Source: Acidimicrobiales bacterium
GTDB taxonomy: Bacteria; Actinomycetota; Acidimicrobiia; Acidimicrobiales; JAVJTC01
Reading direction: 5' to 3'
DNA length: 64,000 nt
Assembly: GCA_040219085.1 (NCBI GenBank)
Contig: JAVJTC010000041.1
Span: 1-64,000 of the forward strand
Shown here piece by piece: positions 9,957 to 34,358 of the stretch (the first letter of the stretch is position 1; each line of letters starts with the position of its first letter). The translations under genes were made by a program, and so were the position numbers. The notes under the pieces are model-generated. The model did no database searches. It worked only from the letters and a program-made list of their open reading frames with translations, and was not told where the DNA came from.

Positions 9957-10280
9957 GTGGCCTACGGTGGCGGACAGCCGATCTGGCGTGTCGCCACGCG
10001 CGAGGAGGCCGCGGTGCTGATCGACCACCTGCGCCGCGCCGGTGTGGGCGCGACGGTGATGGCCGGTCGACGCGACGGTTCGGGTCCCTTCGACATCACC
10101 GTGCGCGCCGACGACGTGGACTACGCGTGCAACGTCTTGGGTATCGGCGTCGTCGAGCCGTCCGGCCTTCTCGCCGGTCGCCCCGTATGGGTCCGCCTGG
10201 CCGGCCTGTTCCTCCTCGTCGCCGTGGTCGTGGTCGCCGTGGCGCTCGTACTCGCCGTGGCGCTGAACACCTCGACGTGA
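9957..10280 (+). CDS. Small DUF2007-like protein with C-terminal membrane anchor
   Basis: 107 residues from GTG 9957. The soluble N-terminal 75 residues (WRVATREEAAVLIDHLRRAG and VRADDVDYACNVLG) resemble the putative signal-transducing DUF2007 fold, a ferredoxin-like domain. A single hydrophobic helix (about 83-103, rich in Val/Ala/Leu) ends the protein. It is 13 bases upstream of the hydrolase gene, probably one transcript. The function is unknown. Confidence 0.65.
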   Translation: MAYGGGQPIWRVATREEAAVLIDHLRRAGVGATVMAGRRDGSGPFDITVRADDVDYACNVLGIGVVEPSGLLAGRPVWVRLAGLFLLVAVVVVAVALVLAVALNTST

Positions 10281-10293
10281 CCCGACTCTCGAC

Positions 10294-11061
10294 GTGACGG
10301 GCGTCGACATCGACGACCTGCGGGTCGTCACCGCCGACGACGTCGACCTCGCGGTTCTTCACCGGCGGGTTCGGGAACCCGTTGCGACCGTCGTGGTCGT
10401 GCACGGTTTCACCGCCCACCGGTCCCACCCCGAGATCGTCGCTCTCGTCGAGGCTCTCGGCGGTGACGACGTGGACATCGTGACCTACGACGGACGCGGC
10501 CACGGCCGTTCGGGCGGTGAGTCGACGCTCGGCGACCGCGAACGCCACGACGTCGCGGCGGCGGTCTCCGTCGCCCGGACCGACACCCCGGTGGTGCTCG
10601 TCGGCGTGTCCATGGGCGGAGCGGCGGTGCTCGGCTATCTCGACGAGCGGCCCCCCGGCTCACCGGAGATCGCCGGACTGCTGCTGATTTCGAGCCCGTC
10701 GCGCTGGCAGGCGAAACCGAGCTTCGTGACCGCCTACGTGACGTTCATCACCCGGACCGCGCCGGGGCGGATGCTCGCCCGGTATCACCCGGGCGTGCGG
10801 ATCGCGAAAGGCCTGCGGCTACCTACGCCCCCGCGGGAGAGAATCAGTCGGGTGTCGGTGCCCGTGTGGATCGTGCACGGGCGCGCGGACCGGCTCCTGG
10901 ACCCCGCGGCCGCCGACGAGCTCCACGCCGCGGCGGCGGGCCCGGCCCGGCTCGATCTCGTCGACGGCATGGGTCATGCACTGCGGGAACCCGGCCTCGC
11001 CGCGGCCCGGCGCGGTCTCGACTGGATCCTCGCGGGCGCTGCTCACGACGACGGCGGATAG
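10294..11061 (+). CDS. Alpha/beta hydrolase (serine esterase/lipase-like)
   Basis: 255 residues from GTG 10294. VVVVHGFTAH supplies the oxyanion-hole HG, GVSMGGAAV carries the nucleophilic Ser near residue 106, VHGRADRLLDP the acid region, and MGHALRE the catalytic His. Size and order fit the monoacylglycerol lipase/thioesterase-type fold. There is no signal peptide. It follows a small membrane-anchored protein in the same orientation. Confidence 0.8.
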   Translation: MTGVDIDDLRVVTADDVDLAVLHRRVREPVATVVVVHGFTAHRSHPEIVALVEALGGDDVDIVTYDGRGHGRSGGESTLGDRERHDVAAAVSVARTDTPVVLVGVSMGGAAVLGYLDERPPGSPEIAGLLLISSPSRWQAKPSFVTAYVTFITRTAPGRMLARYHPGVRIAKGLRLPTPPRERISRVSVPVWIVHGRADRLLDPAAADELHAAAAGPARLDLVDGMGHALREPGLAAARRGLDWILAGAAHDDGG

Positions 11062-11114
11062 GCCTCCGTCCCCTGAGTCCACCGCGTCGCTGATCCCACG
11101 CCTCGCGCCGAACG

Positions 11115-12071
11115 TCAGTCGGTGAGGATCCGGTGGCCCTCTCGGAAGAACCCGAGGGCGCGCCCGCGCTGGTCGTCGGCATCGAGAATGTCGGCGTATC
11201 CGAGCTCGGCTCCGGTGAACGCGTTTGAATCCCAGAACGCGTCATCGGGCACCGAGGCCCACGGCGCTATGTACAGATACGGCGCGTCGTGTGCGGTGTC
11301 GCCAGGGGAGGCGCCGTAGGTGGCGCGCCGACCCGAGTCGCCGTCGCCGATCTCGATGGCGACGTCGAAGTGTCCCGGCCAGAGCTGGACCCTCGATACG
11401 TCCAGGGCGCCGCCGGTCAGCCGCATCTCTTCGAGCACCGACGTGGCGAAACCGAACCAGTCGGCGACGAAGTCCGCCCCCTCGGGGGTGATGGCCAGGG
11501 GACGATCGAGGTCGCCCTGATCGGGGCTGTCGTGTTCGGCGGCGTCGGTGCCCGGCGCCAGATCCAGATGGGCGGCCGCCGCGTTGAGCGTCGTGAGTTC
11601 CGTGGACGCCACCGCACCCGCGCTCTGGAGGACCAGGCGTCCGTCCTCGACGCGGACCTGGCGGTCGTCGTCGAAGAACGGTGTTCCGAAGCCGCCGCGG
11701 GTGAAGCGCAGGCCGAACTTGCCCGTCGAGACACGCCGCGCCTCTGCGACCAGGGAGTAGGCGACGCGGTGGAGGTCCTCGCGCGCTGCGACGAGCCCAG
11801 CCGGTGGTTCGCGTAGGGGTGCCCAGGCGCCGAGCCATCTGGCTCGGGCGAAGTGCGCGATCGCGGTGTCGGCGCGTGCCAGGTCGTCCCAGGTGGTCGT
11901 GCCTGCCGTCGTCGGCGTGACCGTCGGCCGGGTGCGGTCGACGGGAACGGCCGGATCGTCGGCGAAGTCGGGTGCGCCGACCGGCGGCGGGCTCGGCTCG
12001 AGCACGTGGGCCAGGTACCCGTCACCGAGAAGGCTCTGCGCCTCGGCCCGGGGGTCGTGGGCTTGGATCAT
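11115..12071 (-). CDS. Conserved hypothetical protein
   Basis: 318 residues from ATG 12071. I do not recognise a family. Readable features are an N-terminal Pro-rich section, a helical region around ADTAIAHFARARWLG, a beta-rich middle with VQLWPGHFDVAIEIG, and a C-terminal PYLYIAPWASVPDDAFWDS segment rich in aromatics. No signal peptide or membrane helix is seen. It stands convergent to the hydrolase gene and divergent from a small acidic gene. Codon use is like its neighbours, so it is a genuine gene. Confidence 0.7.
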   Translation of the reverse strand: MIQAHDPRAEAQSLLGDGYLAHVLEPSPPPVGAPDFADDPAVPVDRTRPTVTPTTAGTTTWDDLARADTAIAHFARARWLGAWAPLREPPAGLVAAREDLHRVAYSLVAEARRVSTGKFGLRFTRGGFGTPFFDDDRQVRVEDGRLVLQSAGAVASTELTTLNAAAAHLDLAPGTDAAEHDSPDQGDLDRPLAITPEGADFVADWFGFATSVLEEMRLTGGALDVSRVQLWPGHFDVAIEIGDGDSGRRATYGASPGDTAHDAPYLYIAPWASVPDDAFWDSNAFTGAELGYADILDADDQRGRALGFFREGHRILTD

Positions 12072-23064: not shown

Positions 23065-23094
23065 TACAGTCGACGGCGTTGTAAGCGCTTTCAA
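23065..23094 (+). promoter_or_regulatory. -10 box and LacI-type operator before the regulator gene
   Basis: TACAGT (23065-23070) is a plausible -10 with a weak TTTCGC -35 17 bases upstream. The palindrome TTGTAAGCGCTTTCAA (23079-23094) lies just after the predicted start. Its core TGTAAGCGCTTTCA fits LacI-family operators (central CG inside AAGCGCTT), so autorepression is likely. Confidence 0.75.
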
Positions 23095-23117: not shown

Positions 23118-24239
23118 TTGCAGTCAGGTGAAGAACGCGCCGAAGCGGGCGCCGAGCCGGCCGACGCCGGGGAGCACGCCGCAACGGGTGGCGGTGGCCC
23201 AGCCGGTGTCCCCGGCACCCGGCGTGCCCGGATCGACGACGTCGCCCGGCTCGCCGGCGTGTCCGTCGCGACGGTCTCCAGGGCGCTACGGGACCTCCCC
23301 AACGTCGCCGCCGGAACACGCCACCGCGTGCACGAGGCGGCGTCCGCCCTCGGGTACAAGGCCGATCCCAACGCCTCGCGCCTCGCCTCGGGTCGGACCC
23401 GCACGGTCGGTCTGGTCGCCCCGCTGTTCGACCGGTGGTACGCGAGCACCCTCGTCGCAGGCATCGAGCGGGTGCTGTCCGCGGCGGACTACGACCTGTT
23501 GATCCTGTCGGTCGAAGACCCGTCGTGCCGGCACGACTTCTTCGAGCGGTCGGATGCGTTCCAGTCCCGTGTCGACGGGCTCGTCCTGGTCGACTTCTTC
23601 GTCGAGCCCGGATACCGACGGATGCTCGAGCGTCTCCGTGTGCCGGTGGTGACGATCGGGGAGCGCATCGATCCCCACCCGGGGCTCTCGGTGGACAACC
23701 ACCTCGGTGCGCGCCTCGCCGCCGAGCACCTGATCCAGCTCGGACACACCCGGATCGGGGTGATCTCGGGCCACGTGGTGGCGGGGCACGAGTCACCGGT
23801 CCCCGGAGCACGGATGGCGGGTTTCCGCGAGGCGATGGGCGCCGCGGGGCTGGCGTTCTCCGACGAGCTCGTGGCCGACGGCGAGTTCACCATGCAGGGC
23901 GGGGAGCTCGCCATGGCGTCACTGCTCGCGATGGGCGACCCGCCCACCGCCGTGTTCTGTTTCTCCGACGAAATGGCCGCCGGGGCGCTCGAGGCTGCGC
24001 GGTCGCTCGGTGTCGCAGTGCCGGGGGACGTGTCGATCGTCGGCTTCGACGACCACGACTTCGCCGCCGCGGTCGGTCTCACGACCGTGCGTCAACAGGT
24101 CCGGATTCTCGGGGAGCGCGGCGCGGGTCGTCTGCTCGCGGAGATGGCCGAACCCGGTGCGGGGGGACCTCACGAGGTGTGCGACGTGGAGCTCGTCGTG
24201 CGCCGCACGAGCGGAGCTGTGCCGGTGCGCGTGAGGTGA
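23118..24239 (+). CDS. LacI-family transcriptional regulator of the sulfosugar-like cluster
   Basis: 373 residues from TTG 23118. A 37-residue variable N-terminus precedes the LacI helix-turn-helix IDDVARLAGVSVATVSRALRD (about 38-58), then the hinge helix ending in NASRLASGRT, and a periplasmic-binding-protein-like effector domain (VGLVAPLF, VDGLVLVD, CFSDEMAAGALEAARSLG, DVSIVGFDDHDFA). It probably represses its own gene, the ABC importer operon and the ATPase gene through three near-identical palindromes, and is released by a sugar or sugar derivative. The start is uncertain because of the variable leader. Confidence 0.87.
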   Translation: MQSGEERAEAGAEPADAGEHAATGGGGPAGVPGTRRARIDDVARLAGVSVATVSRALRDLPNVAAGTRHRVHEAASALGYKADPNASRLASGRTRTVGLVAPLFDRWYASTLVAGIERVLSAADYDLLILSVEDPSCRHDFFERSDAFQSRVDGLVLVDFFVEPGYRRMLERLRVPVVTIGERIDPHPGLSVDNHLGARLAAEHLIQLGHTRIGVISGHVVAGHESPVPGARMAGFREAMGAAGLAFSDELVADGEFTMQGGELAMASLLAMGDPPTAVFCFSDEMAAGALEAARSLGVAVPGDVSIVGFDDHDFAAAVGLTTVRQQVRILGERGAGRLLAEMAEPGAGGPHEVCDVELVVRRTSGAVPVRVR

Positions 24240-24279: not shown

Positions 24280-24321
24280 TTGATCGAACCGTGTGGCTGG
24301 GTTATGGTGCAAGCGCTTACA
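24280..24321 (+). promoter_or_regulatory. Promoter with overlapping LacI operator before the ABC importer
   Basis: TTGATC (24280-24285), 17 bases and TATGGT (24303-24308) form a good sigma-70-type promoter. The palindrome TGCAAGCGCTTACA (24308-24321) begins in the -10 box and covers the start site, a layout for repression. The ATG of the binding protein follows at 24418. Confidence 0.8.
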
Positions 24322-24417
24322 GTCCTGACGAACAGCCGGGGCGACAAGGTTGTCGACCAACCGTGTCATGGGGAACGGCGGGCGGCATCAACAGTCACAA
24401 GAGGGGAAGTTCACCGC

Positions 24418-25812
24418 ATGAAGCGATCAGCTCTTTGGAAACTCATCGCCGTATTTCTCGCGCTGGCGCTCGTCGCCGCCGCCTGCGGCGATGACGATGA
24501 CGACACCGCATCGGGCGACGACGGCACTGCCGCCGATGACGGCGGAGACGAGGAACCGGCGCCGGCGGTCCCCGCGACCCCGATCGACCAGCGGTTCGTC
24601 GACATGGACTTCTCGGGTCTCACGCTCAACGTGCTGACGCCGGAGACCGCGTCCGAGGCCAGTGGCTTCTTCCAGGGCCTCCTGCCCTTCATCGAAGCCA
24701 CCGGTGTCGGCATCAACCTGAACTCGACGCGCGATGCCACGACCGTGTTGAACCTCGCACTCGAGGGTGGCGATCCGCCTGACATCGTGGCGATCCCCCA
24801 GCCGGGCCGTCTCATCGAGTTCTGCACCAACGGCGACGCCATCGCGATTCCCGACGACGTGCTCGCACGTCTCCAGCCGCAGTTCACCGACGCTTGGTGG
24901 GCACTGGGCGCCTCCGAGGACGGGTCCACCTTCTGTGGCATTCCCGAGAAGGCCGACACGAAGAGCCTCGTCTGGTACAACACCGCACTGTTCGCCGACA
25001 ACGGCTGGGAGGTCCCGACGACCTGGGCCGAGATGGAGACCCTCATCGAGGACGTCACGGCCGAGGGGATCGCTCCCTTCTGCATCGGCATCGAGTCCTC
25101 CGACGCCACCGGCTGGCCCTTCACCGACTGGATGGAGGACTTCATGTTGCGCCTCCACGGACCCGAGGTCTACGACCAGTGGGTCAGCCACGAGATCCCG
25201 TTCAACGACCCCAGGGTGCTCGAGGTTGCCGAGTTCATCGGCGACATCTGGTTCACCGAGGGCAACGTCTTCGGCGGCCGGGCCAACATCGCCACCACGA
25301 ACTTCCGTGATGTCGCCGTGCCGCACATCAACGGCGAATGCGCGATGCACCGCCAGGCGAGCTTCGCCGGGGCGTTCTACACCGAGAACGGTGCGACGAT
25401 CGGCCCCGACGGCGATGTCAGCGTCTTCTACCTGCCGCCGGTCGGTGACGAGTACGGGACCCCGGTGCTGTCCGCGGGCGTGCTGTTCGCCGCATTCAAC
25501 GACAAGCCCGAGACGGTCGCGATGCTCGAGTTCCTGGGAACGACGACGCACCAGGAGGCCAGGTTCATCGCGCAGGGCGGTGGTTACTTCTCGCCGAACC
25601 TCGAGTTCAACAACGCCTTGTTGGCTCCCATCGAGATTGAGATCCTCGACATCTTGTTCGGTGGAAGCGCGGTCCGCTTCGACGGCTCGGACAACATGCC
25701 CGGTGAGGTCGGGTCAGGTTCGTTCTGGCGTGAGGGCACCGACTACGTGTCCGGTGTGATCACCGCCCAGGAGTTCGTCGACAACGTCGAGGACTCCTGG
25801 CCGAGCCAGTAG
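24418..25812 (+). CDS. Sugar ABC transporter substrate-binding lipoprotein
   Basis: 464 residues from ATG 24418 with GAGGGGAAG upstream. The lipobox VAAACG gives a lipidated Cys near 23, then a very acidic Asp-rich linker. The body shows the extracellular solute-binding family 1 pattern: PPDIVAIPQPGRLIEFC, KSLVWYNTALFADNG, PTTWAEMETLIEDV and SFWREGTDYVSG. It delivers a carbohydrate to the two permeases downstream. Ligand is not readable from sequence; an alpha-glucoside-type or sulfoquinovose glycoside is suggested by context. Confidence 0.87.
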   Translation: MKRSALWKLIAVFLALALVAAACGDDDDDTASGDDGTAADDGGDEEPAPAVPATPIDQRFVDMDFSGLTLNVLTPETASEASGFFQGLLPFIEATGVGINLNSTRDATTVLNLALEGGDPPDIVAIPQPGRLIEFCTNGDAIAIPDDVLARLQPQFTDAWWALGASEDGSTFCGIPEKADTKSLVWYNTALFADNGWEVPTTWAEMETLIEDVTAEGIAPFCIGIESSDATGWPFTDWMEDFMLRLHGPEVYDQWVSHEIPFNDPRVLEVAEFIGDIWFTEGNVFGGRANIATTNFRDVAVPHINGECAMHRQASFAGAFYTENGATIGPDGDVSVFYLPPVGDEYGTPVLSAGVLFAAFNDKPETVAMLEFLGTTTHQEARFIAQGGGYFSPNLEFNNALLAPIEIEILDILFGGSAVRFDGSDNMPGEVGSGSFWREGTDYVSGVITAQEFVDNVEDSWPSQ

Positions 25813-26012: not shown

Positions 26013-27743
26013 ATGACGGCCACTGCGGTGCCGGAGGCGCCACCGTCGAGGCCGACGAAGGACCGGGAGCCGCTGGCTTTCGCGACTGTCGCCAAGTGGT
26101 TCGGTTGGGTGGTCACCGCCGCCGTCGTCATCTTGTTGATCATCGGAGCGTTCACCTCCGACCCCATCCGCAAGATGTGGTATTCGATCGTGATCGGCGT
26201 CGGCGCGGCCGCCGCCCTGTTCATCGGGTACAACAAGATTCTCGACCAGAGCCGGGCACGGTGGCCCCTGATCCCCGCCGGCCTGGGGGCGATGGTCGGC
26301 CTCGTCGTCGGCGCGGCGCTCCAGCACAACGGCTGGTTCCCGCCCGACGCTCTCGGCATCCTGTTGGGGGGTCTCGTCGGGTTCGTCGTCGGCTACGGCC
26401 TGGGTATGGCCCTGACGCCCGACCTGGCCGGTCGTGTCAGGTGGGAGCAGCGACTGCGACCGATCGGGTTCGTCGGTCCGGCGGTCATGTTCGTGCTCGT
26501 CTTCCTCATCATCCCGAGCTTCCGGACCATCGTGCTCTCCTTCAAGGGCGGACGGCGCGGTGAGGGTTCGCTCACCCTCGACCAGTACCGCAACGTCCTC
26601 GGTGACGACACCTTCTTCAGCGTCGACGGCTTCACGAACATCTTCACGAGTCGACTGTTCATCGTGGGCGTCTTCGCCCTGGTCTTCGCGGTCGTCGCAG
26701 CGTGGGCGAGCACCCAGAAGTTCCTCGGGACCGACCAGGCCCGCAATGCGACCAACATCATGCGGGTCCTCGGCGGCGCGGTCGTCGTGATGGTCGCTCT
26801 GGCGATCATCGGCTTCTTCGAGGCGGTCTTCCGTGAGCCGAACGAGTCAGACATCGTCGATGTACTGACCAAGGTGGTGTCGAGCACGGCGTCGTTGATC
26901 GTCGTGCTCGTCGCTGCGGCTCTGGTGCTCGCACTGTTCATCCTCGGCCGGTCGCGCGGTAGCACCGCAGACCTGGACTGGGGTACACCCAGCTCGTCGC
27001 TCGTCGCGATCCTCGGTGTGATCCTGTTGCTCTTCGCGGTTCTCTCGACGATGCAGGCGGTCATCTGGAACAACCTCTGGTGGGTCGTCACGGTTGCGGG
27101 ACTGTCGACTGTGCTCGGGCTGCTGCTCGCGATCCTCGCCGACCGGTCGTCGTCGGAGAAGTGGGCCAAGACGATGATCTTCATGCCCATGGCCATCTCC
27201 ATGGTCGGAGCAGCCGTGATCTGGGACTTCATGTACACGCGTTCGCCCGGCGATGACCAGCTCGGTCTGCTCAATGCCATCATCCAGGGCCTGGGGTTCT
27301 CGCCGGCGGGGTTCTTCAACGACGGGCTCCAGGCGCCGTGGAACAACATCTGGATCATGATCATCATGATCTGGATCCAGGCGGGCTTCGCGATGGTGGT
27401 CCTGTCGGCGGCCATCAAGTCGGTGCCCGACGACCTCCTCGAGGCCGCCCGCGTCGACGGGGCGACCGAGATCCAGGTGTTCTGGCGGATCGTCATCCCC
27501 CAGATCCGCCCGACGATCCTCGTCGTGCTCACCACCCTGATCATCATCGTCATGAAGGTGTACGACCTCGTGAAGGCCACGACGAACGGCCGGGCCGGCA
27601 CGGAGGTCTTCGCCAACGCGATGTTCAACGAGCTGCGAAATCCGAACTTCCCGAAGTCGGCGGTGTTCGCGGTCACCATCTTCGTGTTGACGCTGCCCGT
27701 GATGGTCTACAACATCCGCCGGACCCAGAAGGAGGTCGCCTGA
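26013..27743 (+). CDS. ABC sugar permease with unusual extra membrane segments (AglF-like)
   Basis: 576 residues from ATG 26013, nearly twice the usual 290-330. The C-terminal third is a normal binding-protein-dependent permease with the EAA loop EAARVDGATEIQVFWRI near 477. In addition it has about four extra hydrophobic helices before the canonical first helix (about 25-135) and three or four more inserted between that helix and the transport core. I count about 14 in total. The gene follows the binding protein after the hairpin and abuts the second permease by one base. Alpha-glucoside AglF is the nearest remembered relative. Confidence 0.83.
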   Translation: MTATAVPEAPPSRPTKDREPLAFATVAKWFGWVVTAAVVILLIIGAFTSDPIRKMWYSIVIGVGAAAALFIGYNKILDQSRARWPLIPAGLGAMVGLVVGAALQHNGWFPPDALGILLGGLVGFVVGYGLGMALTPDLAGRVRWEQRLRPIGFVGPAVMFVLVFLIIPSFRTIVLSFKGGRRGEGSLTLDQYRNVLGDDTFFSVDGFTNIFTSRLFIVGVFALVFAVVAAWASTQKFLGTDQARNATNIMRVLGGAVVVMVALAIIGFFEAVFREPNESDIVDVLTKVVSSTASLIVVLVAAALVLALFILGRSRGSTADLDWGTPSSSLVAILGVILLLFAVLSTMQAVIWNNLWWVVTVAGLSTVLGLLLAILADRSSSEKWAKTMIFMPMAISMVGAAVIWDFMYTRSPGDDQLGLLNAIIQGLGFSPAGFFNDGLQAPWNNIWIMIIMIWIQAGFAMVVLSAAIKSVPDDLLEAARVDGATEIQVFWRIVIPQIRPTILVVLTTLIIIVMKVYDLVKATTNGRAGTEVFANAMFNELRNPNFPKSAVFAVTIFVLTLPVMVYNIRRTQKEVA

Positions 27744-27744
27744 C

Positions 27745-28719
27745 ATGGCCGCTCCGACCGTAAAAGCGCCCCCGGGTTCCGTGTCCAGCCCGCTGGGCGA
27801 CCCCCGTCAACCAGTCGGTCTGCGGATGCGGCGACTCATGGGTTCGTTGCCCAACTGGGTCCTGTGGACGATCGTCGTGCTCTGGACGATCCCGACGTTC
27901 GGCCTGTTCGTCTCGTCGTTCCGCCAGGTGGAGGACATCAACACGAGTGGCTGGTGGGAGGCGCTCAACCCCGCCCAGTGGACGGACTTCACGATCCAGA
28001 ACTACCGCGACGTGTTCGAGGACCGTGCCGGCGTCAGCTCCCTCAGCGACAGCTTCCTGAACTCGGTTGCGATCGTGATTCCGGCGACGATCATCCCGAT
28101 CGCCGTCGCGGCGTTCGCCGCCTACGGGTTCGCCTGGATCGACTTCAAGGGACGGAACTGGTTCTTCATCTTCATCGTGTCGATGCTGGCACTGCCCAAC
28201 CAGATGACCTTCATCCCGCTGATCCAGTTCTTCCAGAACGGTGCGCACCTCACCCTCTTCGACCAGACCTTCACCCTGTTCCCCGAGACCGGGCTCGCGA
28301 ACACGGCTGCATCGGTGTGGCTGACCCACACCGCATTCGGCCTCCCGCTGGCTCTGTTCCTCTTGCACAACTACATCTCACAGTTGCCCAAGGACATCTT
28401 CGAAGCGGCGAGAATCGACGGCGCCGACCACTTCACCATCTTCTGGAGACTCGTCCTGCCGCTCTCGCGCCCGGCGCTTGCGGCCTTCGCCGTGTTCCAG
28501 TTCCTTTGGACCTGGAACGATCTGCTCGTCGCCCAGGTGTTCCTCAACACGAACGAACCGCTGACGGTGACCCTGGTCAACCTGACCGGTCAGTTCGGTG
28601 ACGACTTCCAGTTGCTGTTCCCGGCGGCCTTCATCATCACGATCGTGCCACTGATCGTGTTCTTCTCGATGCAGAAGCACTTCGTGCGTGGCCTGCTGGC
28701 CGGCTCGGTGAAGGGCTGA
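27745..28719 (+). CDS. ABC sugar permease, second subunit (AglG-like)
   Basis: 324 residues from ATG 27745, one base after the previous stop. Six membrane helices of the MalG/AglG type and the EAA loop EAARIDGADHFTIFWRL near 221 are visible, with the C-terminal VRGLLAGSVKG tail typical of the family. It pairs with the longer permease to form the channel. The ATPase is encoded separately at 31976-33187. Confidence 0.9.
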   Translation: MAAPTVKAPPGSVSSPLGDPRQPVGLRMRRLMGSLPNWVLWTIVVLWTIPTFGLFVSSFRQVEDINTSGWWEALNPAQWTDFTIQNYRDVFEDRAGVSSLSDSFLNSVAIVIPATIIPIAVAAFAAYGFAWIDFKGRNWFFIFIVSMLALPNQMTFIPLIQFFQNGAHLTLFDQTFTLFPETGLANTAASVWLTHTAFGLPLALFLLHNYISQLPKDIFEAARIDGADHFTIFWRLVLPLSRPALAAFAVFQFLWTWNDLLVAQVFLNTNEPLTVTLVNLTGQFGDDFQLLFPAAFIITIVPLIVFFSMQKHFVRGLLAGSVKG

Positions 28720-28799: not shown

Positions 28800-29918
28800 T
28801 TACCCGTCGAGGACCTCGGCCAGGGTCACGGGGCGTCCCTGTTCGATGGAGCGGTGCGCAGCTTCCCCCATGGCCACGGACCACAGGCCATCGGCCAGCG
28901 TGACCTCGGGCCGCGCGCCCGAGCGGACCGCGTCGGCGAATCCCTCGAGCTCTCTGGGGCCGCCCTCGAGGATCGCGGTCGTGAAGCGGGCGAGCTCGAG
29001 GAAGCTCGAACCGTGATGGTCCCCGGCGACCTTGACGGTCTCGTCGGTGACGGTGAACTCCTCGACCTCGCCTATCCAGTGTTCGCCCCGCCTTCCGATA
29101 CGGACGGTGGACTCGGGGATGAGGGCCTCGACCTTGCCCTTGTCGCCGACGACGACGACCTCCTCCTGGTTCTTGGTGGCGTCCGCGAACATGCACAGGT
29201 CGAGCATCGCCCGCACGCCGCCCTCGAAGTCCACGATGACGAAGGCGTTGTCCAACATGTCGGAGGCGGGCCCGGTCTCGTCGCTCACGAGATGGTTCAC
29301 GTCGTGACCGCCCGAGGCGTAGACGCTCACGGGGTCGGTGCCGATGATCACGCGCATGAGGTCGAAGAAGTGACAGCACTTCTCGACGAGTGTTCCGCCG
29401 GTGTTGGCCGTCGACCGGTTCCAGTCACCGATCTTCGACAGGAAGGGGAAGCGGTGCTCGCGGATGGCCACCATGCGTGTCTCGCCGACAGTTCCGGCCC
29501 GTACCTCCTCGATGAGGCGGGCGACAGGGGGCATGTAGCGGTACTCGAGGCCGACCCAGACCATCCCGGGGGCATCCTCGGCTGCAGCCATCACCGTCCG
29601 GCAGCCTTCAACCGTCGTGCACAACGGCTTCTCGACCAGCACGGGAAGCCCGCTCGCGACCACGTCGACCATGACGTCGGCGTGGGTGTGGTTCGGTGTG
29701 GCGACGACGACGGCGTCGCACAGCCCCGACGACAACAGTTCGCGGTGGTCCTCGAAGGTGGTGAGCGGGCCGGCCCAGGCCTCGGTAGCGCTGCTGCGCG
29801 AGGGTCCGTGAGGGTCAGACACCGCGGTGACCGTGGCCCCGTCGAGACCCGCGATGTTGTGGAGGTGTTCGATCCCCATCATCCCGACGCCGATGATTCC
29901 GAACCTGATGTCGCTCAA
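28800..29918 (-). CDS. Gfo/Idh/MocA-fold oxidoreductase, possible NAD-dependent glycosidase
   Basis: 372 residues from TTG 29918. The N-terminal Rossmann motif FGIIGVGMMGIEHL and the EKPLCTT loop identify the family, followed by GDWNRSTANTGGTLVEKCCHFFDLM in the C-terminal sheet domain. Family members oxidise sugars or use a transient oxidation at C3 to cleave glycosides. In clusters with a sulfoquinovose monooxygenase but no GH31 sulfoquinovosidase, a Gfo/Idh-fold NAD-dependent sulfoquinovosidase (GH188) is known; that role here is an inference. A plain sugar dehydrogenase is the alternative. It is divergent from the aldo/keto reductase with 46 bases between them. Confidence 0.72.
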   Translation of the reverse strand: MSDIRFGIIGVGMMGIEHLHNIAGLDGATVTAVSDPHGPSRSSATEAWAGPLTTFEDHRELLSSGLCDAVVVATPNHTHADVMVDVVASGLPVLVEKPLCTTVEGCRTVMAAAEDAPGMVWVGLEYRYMPPVARLIEEVRAGTVGETRMVAIREHRFPFLSKIGDWNRSTANTGGTLVEKCCHFFDLMRVIIGTDPVSVYASGGHDVNHLVSDETGPASDMLDNAFVIVDFEGGVRAMLDLCMFADATKNQEEVVVVGDKGKVEALIPESTVRIGRRGEHWIGEVEEFTVTDETVKVAGDHHGSSFLELARFTTAILEGGPRELEGFADAVRSGARPEVTLADGLWSVAMGEAAHRSIEQGRPVTLAEVLDG

Positions 29919-29964
29919 CGGTCCCCCCGGACTCGCTCAAATGACCCTGGGGTAGGTTACGTCC

Positions 29965-30867
29965 ATGGGTGACTCTCTCGTAACAGCAGACCCGCGAATG
30001 ATCGGTGATCTCTCCATCGGCCCCCTCGCATTCGGTTGTTGGCGCTTCACCGATCCCGACGTCGCCACGGCGCGTCACCTCGTCGAGACGGCACTCGAGG
30101 CGGGGATGAACCTCGTCGACACCGCCGATGTGTACGGCCTCGACTACGGAGGGGAAGGGTTCGGCCACAGCGAGTCGATCCTCGGTGAGGTGCTCGCCGA
30201 CGCCCCGCACCTGCGTGACCGGATGGTCCTCGCCACGAAGGGGGGGATAGCGCCGCCCGTGCCCTACGACTCGTCCGCCTCGTACCTGACCGAGGCGTGC
30301 GACGCGTCACTACGCCGGCTCGGAGTCGACGTGATCGATCTCTATCAGATCCACCGGCCGGACCTGTTCACGCATCCGTCCGAGGTTGCCGGCGCCCTCG
30401 CCGCGCTGCGCGACGCGGGCAAGATCCGCCACGTCGGCGTCTCCAACTTCACGCCCTACCAGTACGACGCCCTGCGCGCCCACCTGCCGTTCCCGCTCGT
30501 CACGACCCAGCCCGAGATGTCGGCGCTGCACCTGGACCCGATCCGGGACGGAACCCTCGACGCGGCGATGCGCGACGGTGTCACGCCGCTCGCATGGAGC
30601 GCCCTGGGCGGTGGTCGACTCGCCACAGGCGAGGGCGTTCGTGTCGAGCTGCTCACCGTGCTGGACCGGCTCGCGGCGCGTGAGGGAGTCGACAGGGCGG
30701 CCATCGCGACGGCGTTCGTGCTCGCGCATCCGTCGAAGCCCGTCGTGATCGTCGGATCCCAGACCCCGGCCCGCATCAGCGCCGCCGGTGCGGCACTCGG
30801 TGTGGGCCTCGACCGCAACGACGTCTACGCCGTCATCGAAGCCTCCGAGGGGGTACCACTGCCATGA
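29965..30867 (+). CDS. Aldo/keto reductase, SmoB-like candidate
   Basis: 300 residues from ATG 29965; a -10-like TAGGTT at 29953-29958 suggests a leaderless mRNA. Catalytic residues are visible: Asp in LVDTADVYG, the Tyr of that same motif, Lys in ATKGG, and His in LYQIHRPD. Other signs are VGVSNFTPYQYDAL and VVIVGSQTPARI. The gene overlaps the sulfonate monooxygenase gene by four bases. In the sulfo-SMO pathway an aldo/keto reductase reduces 6-oxo-glucose to glucose with NADPH; this gene fills that position. Confidence 0.78.
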   Translation: MGDSLVTADPRMIGDLSIGPLAFGCWRFTDPDVATARHLVETALEAGMNLVDTADVYGLDYGGEGFGHSESILGEVLADAPHLRDRMVLATKGGIAPPVPYDSSASYLTEACDASLRRLGVDVIDLYQIHRPDLFTHPSEVAGALAALRDAGKIRHVGVSNFTPYQYDALRAHLPFPLVTTQPEMSALHLDPIRDGTLDAAMRDGVTPLAWSALGGGRLATGEGVRVELLTVLDRLAAREGVDRAAIATAFVLAHPSKPVVIVGSQTPARISAAGAALGVGLDRNDVYAVIEASEGVPLP

Positions 30868-31931
30868 GCGGACCTGTCGAGATCGCCTGGTTCTCGGCGC
30901 TCTGCGACGACGACTACGAGTTCCTCGGTGTGCCGGACCCCGCATTGCGGTCGTCGTGGCCGCACTGCCGTGACATCGTCGCCACCGCCGACCGCAACGG
31001 ACTCGACAACGTCCTGTTGCCCTCGGGCTACACGCTCGGTATCGACTCGACGGCCTTCGCCGCCGCGATCGCGACCCACACCGACCAGATCAATCTCCTG
31101 CTCGCCGTGCGGATGGGCGAGATGTGGCTTCCCCAGCTGGCCCGCCAGCTCGCGACCATCGACCAGATGGCCGGTGGACGCCTCACGATCAACATCATCT
31201 CGAGCGACATCCCCGGTGAGACCCTCGACTCCGAGCCGCGCTACCAGCGCACGCGCGAGTGGATGCAGGTCCTACGGATGCTCCTCGACGGTGAGTCCGT
31301 CGACTTCCACGGCCAGTTCGTCGACCTGACCCTGGATCCGCCCGGTGCCCGCACGGTGTCAGGGAAGTGCCCGCCTTTCTACTTCGGAGGATTCTCCGAG
31401 CCGGCCAAGGAGACCGCCGCCGCGGCCTGCGACGTCTTCCTGACGTGGCCGGACCGTGTGGTCGCCGTGGGAGAGACCGTGAAGGACATGCGCGCACGCG
31501 CCGAGCGTCATGGTCGGACACTGCGGTACGGGCTGCGGAGCCACGTGATCGTGCGTGAGACCGAAACGGAGGCCCGGGCGGCCGCGGACCGCCTGATGAG
31601 CCGGCTCGACCTCGACGAGGGCGAAAAGATCCGCCAGCGCTCGTTGGATACGGCCTCGGCGGGCGTCCAGCGGCAGGTGGCGTTGCGCGCGGACGCAGAC
31701 GACGCCGGTTACGCCGAGGAAAATCTCTGGACCGGCATCGGCAAGGCCCGCAGCGGCGCGGGTGCGGCGATCGTCGGCGATCCGGATCAGGTGGTGGCCA
31801 AGCTCGAGGCGTACCGCGACGTCGGGATCGACGCGTTCGTCCTGTCGGGGTACCCCCACATCGACGAGTGCGAGCTGTTCGCCCGCCACGTCCTTCCCCG
31901 CATCGACCACGCGCGGATCCACGGCGCCTGA
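30864..31931 (+). CDS. SsuD-type FMNH2-dependent sulfonate monooxygenase (SmoC-like)
   Basis: 355 residues from ATG 30864, coupled to the reductase gene by ATGA. It tracks the alkanesulfonate monooxygenase SsuD along its length: ARQLATIDQMAGGRLTINI, YFGGFSEPAKE, FLTWPDRV, RYGLRSHVIVRET, and ENLWTGIGKARSGAGAAIVG with VLSGYPHIDE. It cleaves C-S bonds to give sulfite plus an aldehyde and needs a separate flavin reductase, none of which is in the window. Paired with a sugar ABC importer and an aldo/keto reductase, the likely substrate is sulfoquinovose rather than a simple alkanesulfonate. Confidence 0.85.
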   Translation: MSGPVEIAWFSALCDDDYEFLGVPDPALRSSWPHCRDIVATADRNGLDNVLLPSGYTLGIDSTAFAAAIATHTDQINLLLAVRMGEMWLPQLARQLATIDQMAGGRLTINIISSDIPGETLDSEPRYQRTREWMQVLRMLLDGESVDFHGQFVDLTLDPPGARTVSGKCPPFYFGGFSEPAKETAAAACDVFLTWPDRVVAVGETVKDMRARAERHGRTLRYGLRSHVIVRETETEARAAADRLMSRLDLDEGEKIRQRSLDTASAGVQRQVALRADADDAGYAEENLWTGIGKARSGAGAAIVGDPDQVVAKLEAYRDVGIDAFVLSGYPHIDECELFARHVLPRIDHARIHGA

Positions 31932-31975: not shown

Positions 31976-33187
31976 TCAGTCGCGGATGGCGAGTCCCGTC
32001 TCGGGGTCGAAGAAGTGGGCGTGCTCGACGAACACGGCGACCTCGATGTCGTCGCCCACCTTGGCCTTCGTCTCGGGGTCGAAACGTGCGGCCACCCGAC
32101 TGGGGTGGTGGGTCTTGACGTCGGCGTAGCCGCCGAGTTCCGAGCTGATCATGTCCTCGGGGAGGTCGAGCGCCTCGGCCTCGATGATCGGGGTGGCGTC
32201 GAGCTCGAAGTGCATGATGACTTCGAATCCGAGGGCTTCACGGTTGGTGATCGTCGAACGGAACCGGCGGTCCGGCGGCGTGTCCGGGTACAGCGCGGCA
32301 TCGTTGAGATCCTTGGGGCGCAGCCCCACCGCGACGGGCTTGCCGAGGTACTCACGCAGCCGTGGCCGCTTGGCCAGGGTCTCGCGGGGGATCGACAGCG
32401 TGTGGGAGCCGAGGCCGAGGCGAAGGTCGTCGTCGCCCTCGTCGACGAGGACGCCCTGCATCAGGTTCATGGAGGGGGAGCCGATGAACGCGGCGACGAA
32501 GAGATTGTCGGGCTCGTCGAAGAGCTTCTGGGGTGGGTCGACCTGCTGGAGCACGCCGGCCTTGATGACCGCGACGCGATCGGCCATCGTCATCGCCTCG
32601 ACCTGGTCGTGGGTGACGTAGAAGGTCGTCACGCCGAGCTCGGCCTGGATTCGGGTCACCTCGGCGCGCATCTGGACGCGCAGCTTGGCATCGAGGTTGG
32701 AGAGAGGCTCGTCGAGGAGGAACACCTCCGGTGAGCGCACGATGGCGCGTCCCATCGCGACGCGCTGGCGTTGACCGCCCGATAGCTGTGCAGGCTTGCG
32801 GTCCAGCAGCGGATCCAGCTCGAGGGTGCGCGCCGCGGCCATCACCCGGTCGTCGATCTCGGCCTTGGGCACCTTGGCGAGCTTGAGCGCGAACGCGACG
32901 TTGTCGTAGACGGTCATGTGGGGGTACAGCGCGTAGTTCTGGAAGACCATGGCGATGTCACGGTCCTTGGGCTGGAGCTCGTTGACGACCCGGTCACCGA
33001 TGGTGAGCGTTCCGCCGGTGATCTCCTCGAGGCCGGCGATCATCCGCAACGTGGTGGACTTGCCACAGCCCGACGGGCCGACCATGACGAGGAACTCGCC
33101 GTCGGTGATCTCAAGGTTGAGATCCGTGACGGCCTTGAAGCCGTTCGGGTACTGCTTCTCGACGCCCTCGAGCAGGACCTGTCCCAT
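31976..33187 (-). CDS. Sugar ABC transporter ATPase (UgpC/MsmK/AglK type)
   Basis: 403 residues from ATG 33187. Walker A is [14 protein letters not shown], then the Q-loop [11 protein letters not shown], the signature [14 protein letters not shown], Walker [17 protein letters not shown], and the H-loop VTHDQVEAM. The C-terminal regulatory MOI/TOBE part follows ([11 protein letters not shown]). It powers the two permeases encoded 3-5 kb away on the other strand. Its promoter region holds the third LacI operator. Confidence 0.93.
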
Positions 33188-33253: not shown

Positions 33254-33269
33254 TGCAAGCGCTTACACT
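33254..33269 (-). promoter_or_regulatory. LacI-type operator upstream of the ABC ATPase gene
   Basis: TGCAAGCGCTTACA (33254-33267) is identical to the site at 24308. On the minus strand it sits directly next to a possible -10 box (TAGTGT, read from 33269 down to 33264), 67 bases before the ATPase ATG. The divergent dehydrogenase has its own possible promoter (TTGCCA 33313-33318, GATAGT 33335-33340). Confidence 0.8.
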
Positions 33270-33407: not shown

Positions 33408-34358
33408 GTGAAGGCCGTCAGGTCGCGCGAAGGCGAGATCGTGACCGTGGAGACCGACCGTCCCCACGGCGACGGCGTGCGGGTACGAATGGCCTCCGCC
33501 GGCGTGTGCGGATCCGATCTGCACATGCACGACCTGGGCCTTCTCCCGCCAGACGTGACGATCGGCCATGAGGTCGCCGGCTTCCTCGCCGACGGCCGCG
33601 CCGTCGCCGTCGAACCGATCACCGGCTGCGGCGTGTGTCCCCAATGCCTCGAGGGTCGTCACAACATCTGCAAGTCGGCGGGAGCGGGAGTCCTCGGATT
33701 CGGTCGCAACGGGGGTATGGCCGAAGAGGTCCTCGTCGATGCGAGCCAGATCGTCCCGTTGGCCTCGGGCCTCGACGTCACCACGGCTTCGCTGGTGGAA
33801 CCTCTCGGCGTCGCGGTCCACGCCCTGCGGATGGTCGACGCACGCCCACCACAGCGGATCCTCGTCATCGGAGCCGGGCCGATCGGCCTGTGCGCGCTCG
33901 CCGTCGCGCGTCACGTCGGTCTGGAGTGTGCGATCGTCACCCGCCACGACGCGCAGCAGCGCGCCGCGGAGATGCTGGGTGCGTCGCCGGCCACCGACGA
34001 GCCCTATGACCTGGTCATCGAGGCCGCCGGCTCCAAGAGCGCACTCGCCGACGCGGTGGCCCGGTGCCGGCGGGGCGGCACCGTCGTGCTCCTCGGGATG
34101 TACTGGGGGACCATCGAAGCGCCCGGCATCGCCGTGTGCCTGCGTGAGATCAGCATCGTCCCGGCCGCCATGTACGGCGTCGGACCGACGGGTCGCGACA
34201 TCGACGCCGCCGCCGCGGTCCTCGCCACCCACCCCGTGATCGCCGATGCACTGATCACCCACAGGTTCCCGCTCGATGCATCGGCGGAGGCCTTCGCGGC
34301 CGCCGCCGACCGCGTCGGCGGGGCGATCAAGGTCGTCTTCTCAGCGGAGGCGACGTGA
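33408..34358 (+). CDS. Zinc-dependent sugar/polyol dehydrogenase (MDR family)
   Basis: 316 residues from GTG 33408. The ligand motif AGVCGSDLHMHD and GHEVAGF give the catalytic zinc site, GCGVCPQCLEGRHNIC the four-Cys structural zinc, and VIGAGPIGLCALAVARH the nucleotide-binding fold. It is shorter than usual at the N-terminus. Substrate probably a sugar alcohol or aldehyde; it may process the product of the neighbouring cluster, or be unrelated. It is divergent from the ATPase gene. Confidence 0.8.
   Translation: MKAVRSREGEIVTVETDRPHGDGVRVRMASAGVCGSDLHMHDLGLLPPDVTIGHEVAGFLADGRAVAVEPITGCGVCPQCLEGRHNICKSAGAGVLGFGRNGGMAEEVLVDASQIVPLASGLDVTTASLVEPLGVAVHALRMVDARPPQRILVIGAGPIGLCALAVARHVGLECAIVTRHDAQQRAAEMLGASPATDEPYDLVIEAAGSKSALADAVARCRRGGTVVLLGMYWGTIEAPGIAVCLREISIVPAAMYGVGPTGRDIDAAAAVLATHPVIADALITHRFPLDASAEAFAAAADRVGGAIKVVFSAEAT

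Follow-up and report, generated by a model that had tools for sequence, protein, structure and literature searches.

A probable GH188-type sulfoquinovosidase in a sulfo-SMO-type gene cluster from Acidimicrobiia

The gene at positions 28800-29918 very probably encodes a GH188 sulfoquinovosidase (SqgA) within a sulfo-SMO-type cluster, a reading to which we assign a probability of about 0.93. Such an NAD-using enzyme would release sulfoquinovose, a plant sulfo-sugar, from glycosides. Glycosidase activity is predicted because the protein is homologous to characterised GH188 enzymes. The window, i.e., the whole stretch of 64,000 nucleotides that was analysed, contains the gene and its cluster; their coordinates are collected in Table 1.

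Table 1. Coordinates of the cluster genes, protein elements and operators in the window
Feature	Position	Strand	Remarks
LacI-type operator TGTAAGCGCTTTCA	23080..23093		before regulator gene
LacI-family regulator	23118..24239	+	profile matches
LacI-type operator TGCAAGCGCTTACA	24308..24321		before binding-protein gene
Sugar ABC transporter substrate-binding lipoprotein	24412..25812 (frame; start near 24418)	+	
ABC sugar permease A	26013..27743	+	576 aa
ABC sugar permease B	27745..28719	+	
Predicted GH188-type NAD+-dependent sulfoquinovosidase (SqgA homologue)	28800..29918	-	372 aa, TTG start; homology, Pfam, model
Insertion of ~15 residues, within residues 314-334	28917..28979	-	alignment; low pLDDT at 321-334
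Putative sulfonate-binding motif EHRFPFLSK, residues 154-162	29433..29459	-	alignment to ArSqgA R166, L170, K172
Aldo/keto reductase, SmoB-like	29965..30867	+	best PDB match 7bby/7bbz, E 6e-46
FMNH2-dependent luciferase-fold monooxygenase, SmoC-like	30864..31931	+	7oh2, E 1e-108
UgpC/MalK-type ABC transporter ATPase	31976..33187	-	NF008653, 450.7 bits (cut-off 432)
LacI-type operator TGCAAGCGCTTACA	33254..33267		between ATPase and zinc dehydrogenase genes
Zinc alcohol/sugar dehydrogenase	33432..34358 (as tested; true start may be slightly upstream)	+	

Family assignment and predicted active site

The open frame comprises 372 codons and begins at 29918, with a Shine-Dalgarno-like GGGGGGA close upstream of the TTG. 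An earlier note on this DNA had attributed a Gfo/Idh fold to the product and placed the gene between the permeases and the reductase/monooxygenase pair; both statements held, as the two Gfo/Idh/MocA Pfam domains were matched (PF01408, E 3e-25; PF02894, E 4e-29) and the flanking genes lie as described. In its own genome, the gene product has no other homologue at E<=1e-40. The three best sequence matches in the PDB, all taken as sulfoquinovosidases from their entry titles, were 8qc3 (ArSqgA; E 9.7e-101, 340.7 bits), 8qc2 (FlSqgA; E 2.5e-97, 329.5 bits) and 8zn9 (E 3.9e-91), with identities of 50.6%, 49.6% and 47%, respectively. The PDB title of 8zn9 is "A vast marine sulfonate-based carbon cycle fueled by novel sulfoquinovosidases". 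The next match was a Thermotoga dehydrogenase (E 1.5e-27, 99.9 bits).

An AlphaFold2 model built from a 43-sequence alignment (pLDDT 90.2, pTM 0.90) displays the two-domain GH188 fold, which combines a Rossmann domain with an alpha/beta dimerisation domain. The GH188 and 8zn9 chains occupied the top Foldseek ranks for this model. Using VIA-align, the model superposed on 8qc2 with a Z of 47.6 (1.7 A over 348 residues); Z was at least 46 for each sulfoquinovosidase entry and at most 38.7 for the other entries listed, GH109 scoring 35.5. In the predicted structure, the gap between GH188 and the other entries is clear, although the fold is common to all of them. The comparison with GH188 structures that the earlier note had called for therefore places these as the best superposing ones.

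In the ternary complex of enzyme, NAD and sulfoquinovose described in PMC10755693, His321 contacts the C1-OH, Tyr136 the C2-OH, His193 and Lys107 the C3-OH, and Glu189 the C4-OH, while the sulfonate is held by Arg166, Lys172 and the backbone of Leu170. Based on an alignment of 112 sequences, rather than on side-chain positions in the model, the sugar contacts correspond to H301, Y126, H183, K97 and E179, all present in the 372-aa protein. The sulfonate triad is likewise complete (R156, K162 and, through its backbone, L160), so that the Arg and Lys residues that the earlier note proposed to look for were found. All mapped contact residues except the Leu are invariant among the 112 sequences, and so is E154, two residues ahead of R156; PMC10755693 names the Glu at this position Glu163, which is one off its own Arg166 by the numbering derived here.

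The loop equivalent to ArSqgA P278-T293, whose His283 packs near Leu170, is shorter in our protein and its relatives according to the alignment. The same shortening has been reported for GH188 variants with a Tyr at the Leu position (PMC11465081). Unlike these variants, the protein described here keeps the Leu, and its gene neighbours are of the sulfo-SMO type and not sulfo-EMP-like. Among the relatives, this position is occupied by Phe in L005 and L006 and by His or Gln in L043, L048, L053 and L055, substitutions that go beyond the reported Tyr variants. The insertion of about 15 residues is absent from ArSqgA, FlSqgA, 8zn9 and the nearest relatives; it resembles a second copy of an F-x-x-A-[IV]-x-x-G-x-x-P element located near the C-terminus.

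Gene neighbourhood and proposed pathway

The genes are arranged in the order LacI regulator, binding lipoprotein, permease A and permease B (all on the plus strand), GH188 (minus), reductase and monooxygenase (plus), ATPase (minus) and zinc dehydrogenase (plus). The best PDB matches of the monooxygenase were 7oh2 (366 bits) and 7olf (E 4e-106), which we take to be SmoC, the sulfo-SMO monooxygenase; SsuD-type entries scored 215-230 bits. The reductase best matched 7bby/7bbz, presumably SmoB, the 6-oxo-glucose reductase of sulfo-SMO. By homology, SmoC-type and SmoB-type enzymes are hence encoded together, in genes that overlap by 4 bases. No flavin reductase (SmoA) was found among the cluster genes, and three Flavin_Reduct genes lie elsewhere in the genome; genomes are scored as sulfo-SMO-positive on SmoB plus SmoC in PMC13372026. 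A GH31 enzyme encoded elsewhere was considered as the sulfoquinovosidase and dropped, since Glyco_hydro_31 had no match in the genome (completeness 96.4%) or in the cluster. A TAGGTT element lies about 6 bases ahead of the start of the reductase gene (29953-29967), so that the message of this gene may be leaderless.

Three near-identical operator-like sites (TGNAAGCGCTTNCA) occur in the window, compared with 0.04 expected. A looser form of this motif occurred 16 times in 1.2 Mb from relatives, and 12 of these occurrences were near the starts of cluster genes: 5 before the binding protein, 2 before the ATPase and 5 in the divergent GH188/reductase spacer. Because the relatives' motifs precede cluster genes and fall in that spacer, the GH188 gene is probably part of the same LacI regulon; the window's own 46-bp GH188/reductase spacer contains no clear operator. 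The zinc dehydrogenase gene shares its operator region with the ATPase gene and is not found beside GH188 in the relatives.

From published work we infer which substrate is used, by what chemistry, and in which direction the pathway runs. Hydrolysis of sulfoquinovosides that depends on NAD+ but on no metal, with incorporation of deuterium at C2, is a hallmark of GH188. The ABC transporter would import sulfoquinovosyl glycerol or similar glycosides, and the NAD+ bound to the GH188 enzyme would transiently oxidise C3 of the glycoside. The aglycone would then depart by elimination across C1-C2, followed by the addition of water and the reduction of the 3-ketone, so that sulfoquinovose would be set free without any net formation of NADH. 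From sulfoquinovose, the SmoC-like monooxygenase would release sulfite and leave 6-oxo-glucose, which the SmoB-like reductase would turn into glucose. The cluster is presumably controlled by the LacI-type regulator.

Distribution in Acidimicrobiia and alternative readings

Named records place the relatives in the class Acidimicrobiia. The GH188 gene was present in 83 of 296 genomes of the class and the monooxygenase in 54, 52 of which also carried GH188 (naive hypergeometric probability 2e-33, uncorrected for shared ancestry). The two exceptions (G184 and G185) have weak monooxygenase matches, with 49% identity. Among 48 fetched loci, each with 2.5 kb of flanking sequence on either side, the monooxygenase was found in 25, and monooxygenase and reductase together in 19. 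The arrangement of the window, with permeases, an opposed GH188 gene, reductase and monooxygenase, recurs in L012, L080, L081, L085, L088 and L102. In L078, a locus of the complete genome of Actinobacteria bacterium IMCC26256, the GH188 and monooxygenase genes are adjacent.

At a threshold of E<=1e-90, 31 of the 83 GH188-positive genomes lack the monooxygenase (among them G082, G137, G144, G189, G213, G268, G274 and G292), and in loci L051, L066, L070, L072, L075, L076, L095 and L096 the GH188 gene is located among genes with no recognisable link to sulfoquinovose. In L051, it is followed by a metallo-beta-lactamase-fold gene (10103-12022) that is alkyl sulfatase-like by eye and has only weak SoxH-related NCBIfam matches. 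Within 9 kb of the monooxygenase-less GH188 loci, the recurrent neighbours belong to families found in at most 5 loci, and on inspection none of these families could be linked to a route for sulfoquinovose; the idea of a hidden new pathway around these loci was therefore dropped. It is unlikely that the Acidimicrobiia enzymes form a loop-shortened branch with a specificity unlike that of ArSqgA, some members of which, with no known pathway nearby, would serve an undescribed sulfo-sugar route.

An ordinary Gfo/Idh/MocA dehydrogenase that acts on a sugar or on sulfoquinovose and makes NADH, be it of the inositol or glucose type or as in sulfo-ED, would share its fold with the protein described here, as many dehydrogenases do, and the best NCBIfam model is indeed inositol 2-dehydrogenase; however, that model scores 140.6 bits, under its cut-off of 355, and all GH188 structures exceed 300 bits, compared with about 100 for the best dehydrogenase. 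The complete sulfonate triad also speaks against such an enzyme, as does the monooxygenase route, which requires free sulfoquinovose and not the lactone. Additionally, according to PMC12133307, the known sulfoquinovose dehydrogenase belongs to another family, the SDR superfamily. On scores and residues, the dehydrogenase was rejected as very improbable. The earlier note's preference for a glycosidase is borne out by the roughly 50% identity to GH188, by the full retention of the contact residues and by a model whose nearest structures are those of GH188.

The same NAD-dependent glycosidase chemistry might act on a shifted substrate, for instance another 6-sulfonated or acidic glycoside. The shortening of the loop beside the sulfonate site and the private insertion are in line with this, as are the several relatives whose GH188 gene has no recognisable sulfoquinovose pathway nearby. 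We nevertheless regard it as extremely improbable for the protein of the window, given that the sulfonate and hydroxyl contacts are fully conserved and the gene sits among SmoC and SmoB homologues.

Relation to known systems and significance

The protein resembles ArSqgA and FlSqgA (8qc2, 8qc3, 8qc5, 8qc6 and 8qc8; PMC10755693) in its fold, its contact residues and its location in a sulfoquinovose cluster devoid of GH31, as well as in its identity of about 50%, just under the 53% at which clusters were drawn in that GH188 founding paper. It differs from them in the shortened loop, the 15-residue insertion and the Acidimicrobiia host, and its neighbours are of the sulfo-SMO type, whereas those in Arthrobacter are of the sulfo-EMP type (PMC10755693). 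With 8zn9 it shares the fold and the contact residues, but the two are only 47% identical and differ in the loop close to the sulfonate site.

GH188 genes in sulfo-SMO (sulfo-ASMO) clusters without GH31 were described in Roseobacter and others in 2023 (PMC10755693). For Actinomycetota, sulfo-SMO clusters were reported in 2026 (PMC13372026). The cluster of the window is like these in that SqgA is accompanied by transporter genes and by genes of the SmoC and SmoB types, and unlike them in having a LacI regulator and a UgpC-type ATPase and no SmoA. A 2026 review still gives sulfo-SMO as proteobacterial (PMC12890257). In the literature searched, we found no paper linking sulfoquinovose catabolism to Acidimicrobiia; one unrelated soil paper contains both words. 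The chemistry and the cluster type are already known, and the new part is a modest widening of the host range.

The picture of GH188 chemistry is unchanged. The annotation "Gfo/Idh/MocA oxidoreductase" would hide a predicted glycosidase in about one in four of the genomes sampled from the class, and Acidimicrobiia, which records place in many environmental metagenomes, join the bacteria that probably achieve a complete mineralisation of plant and algal sulfolipid to glucose and sulfite.
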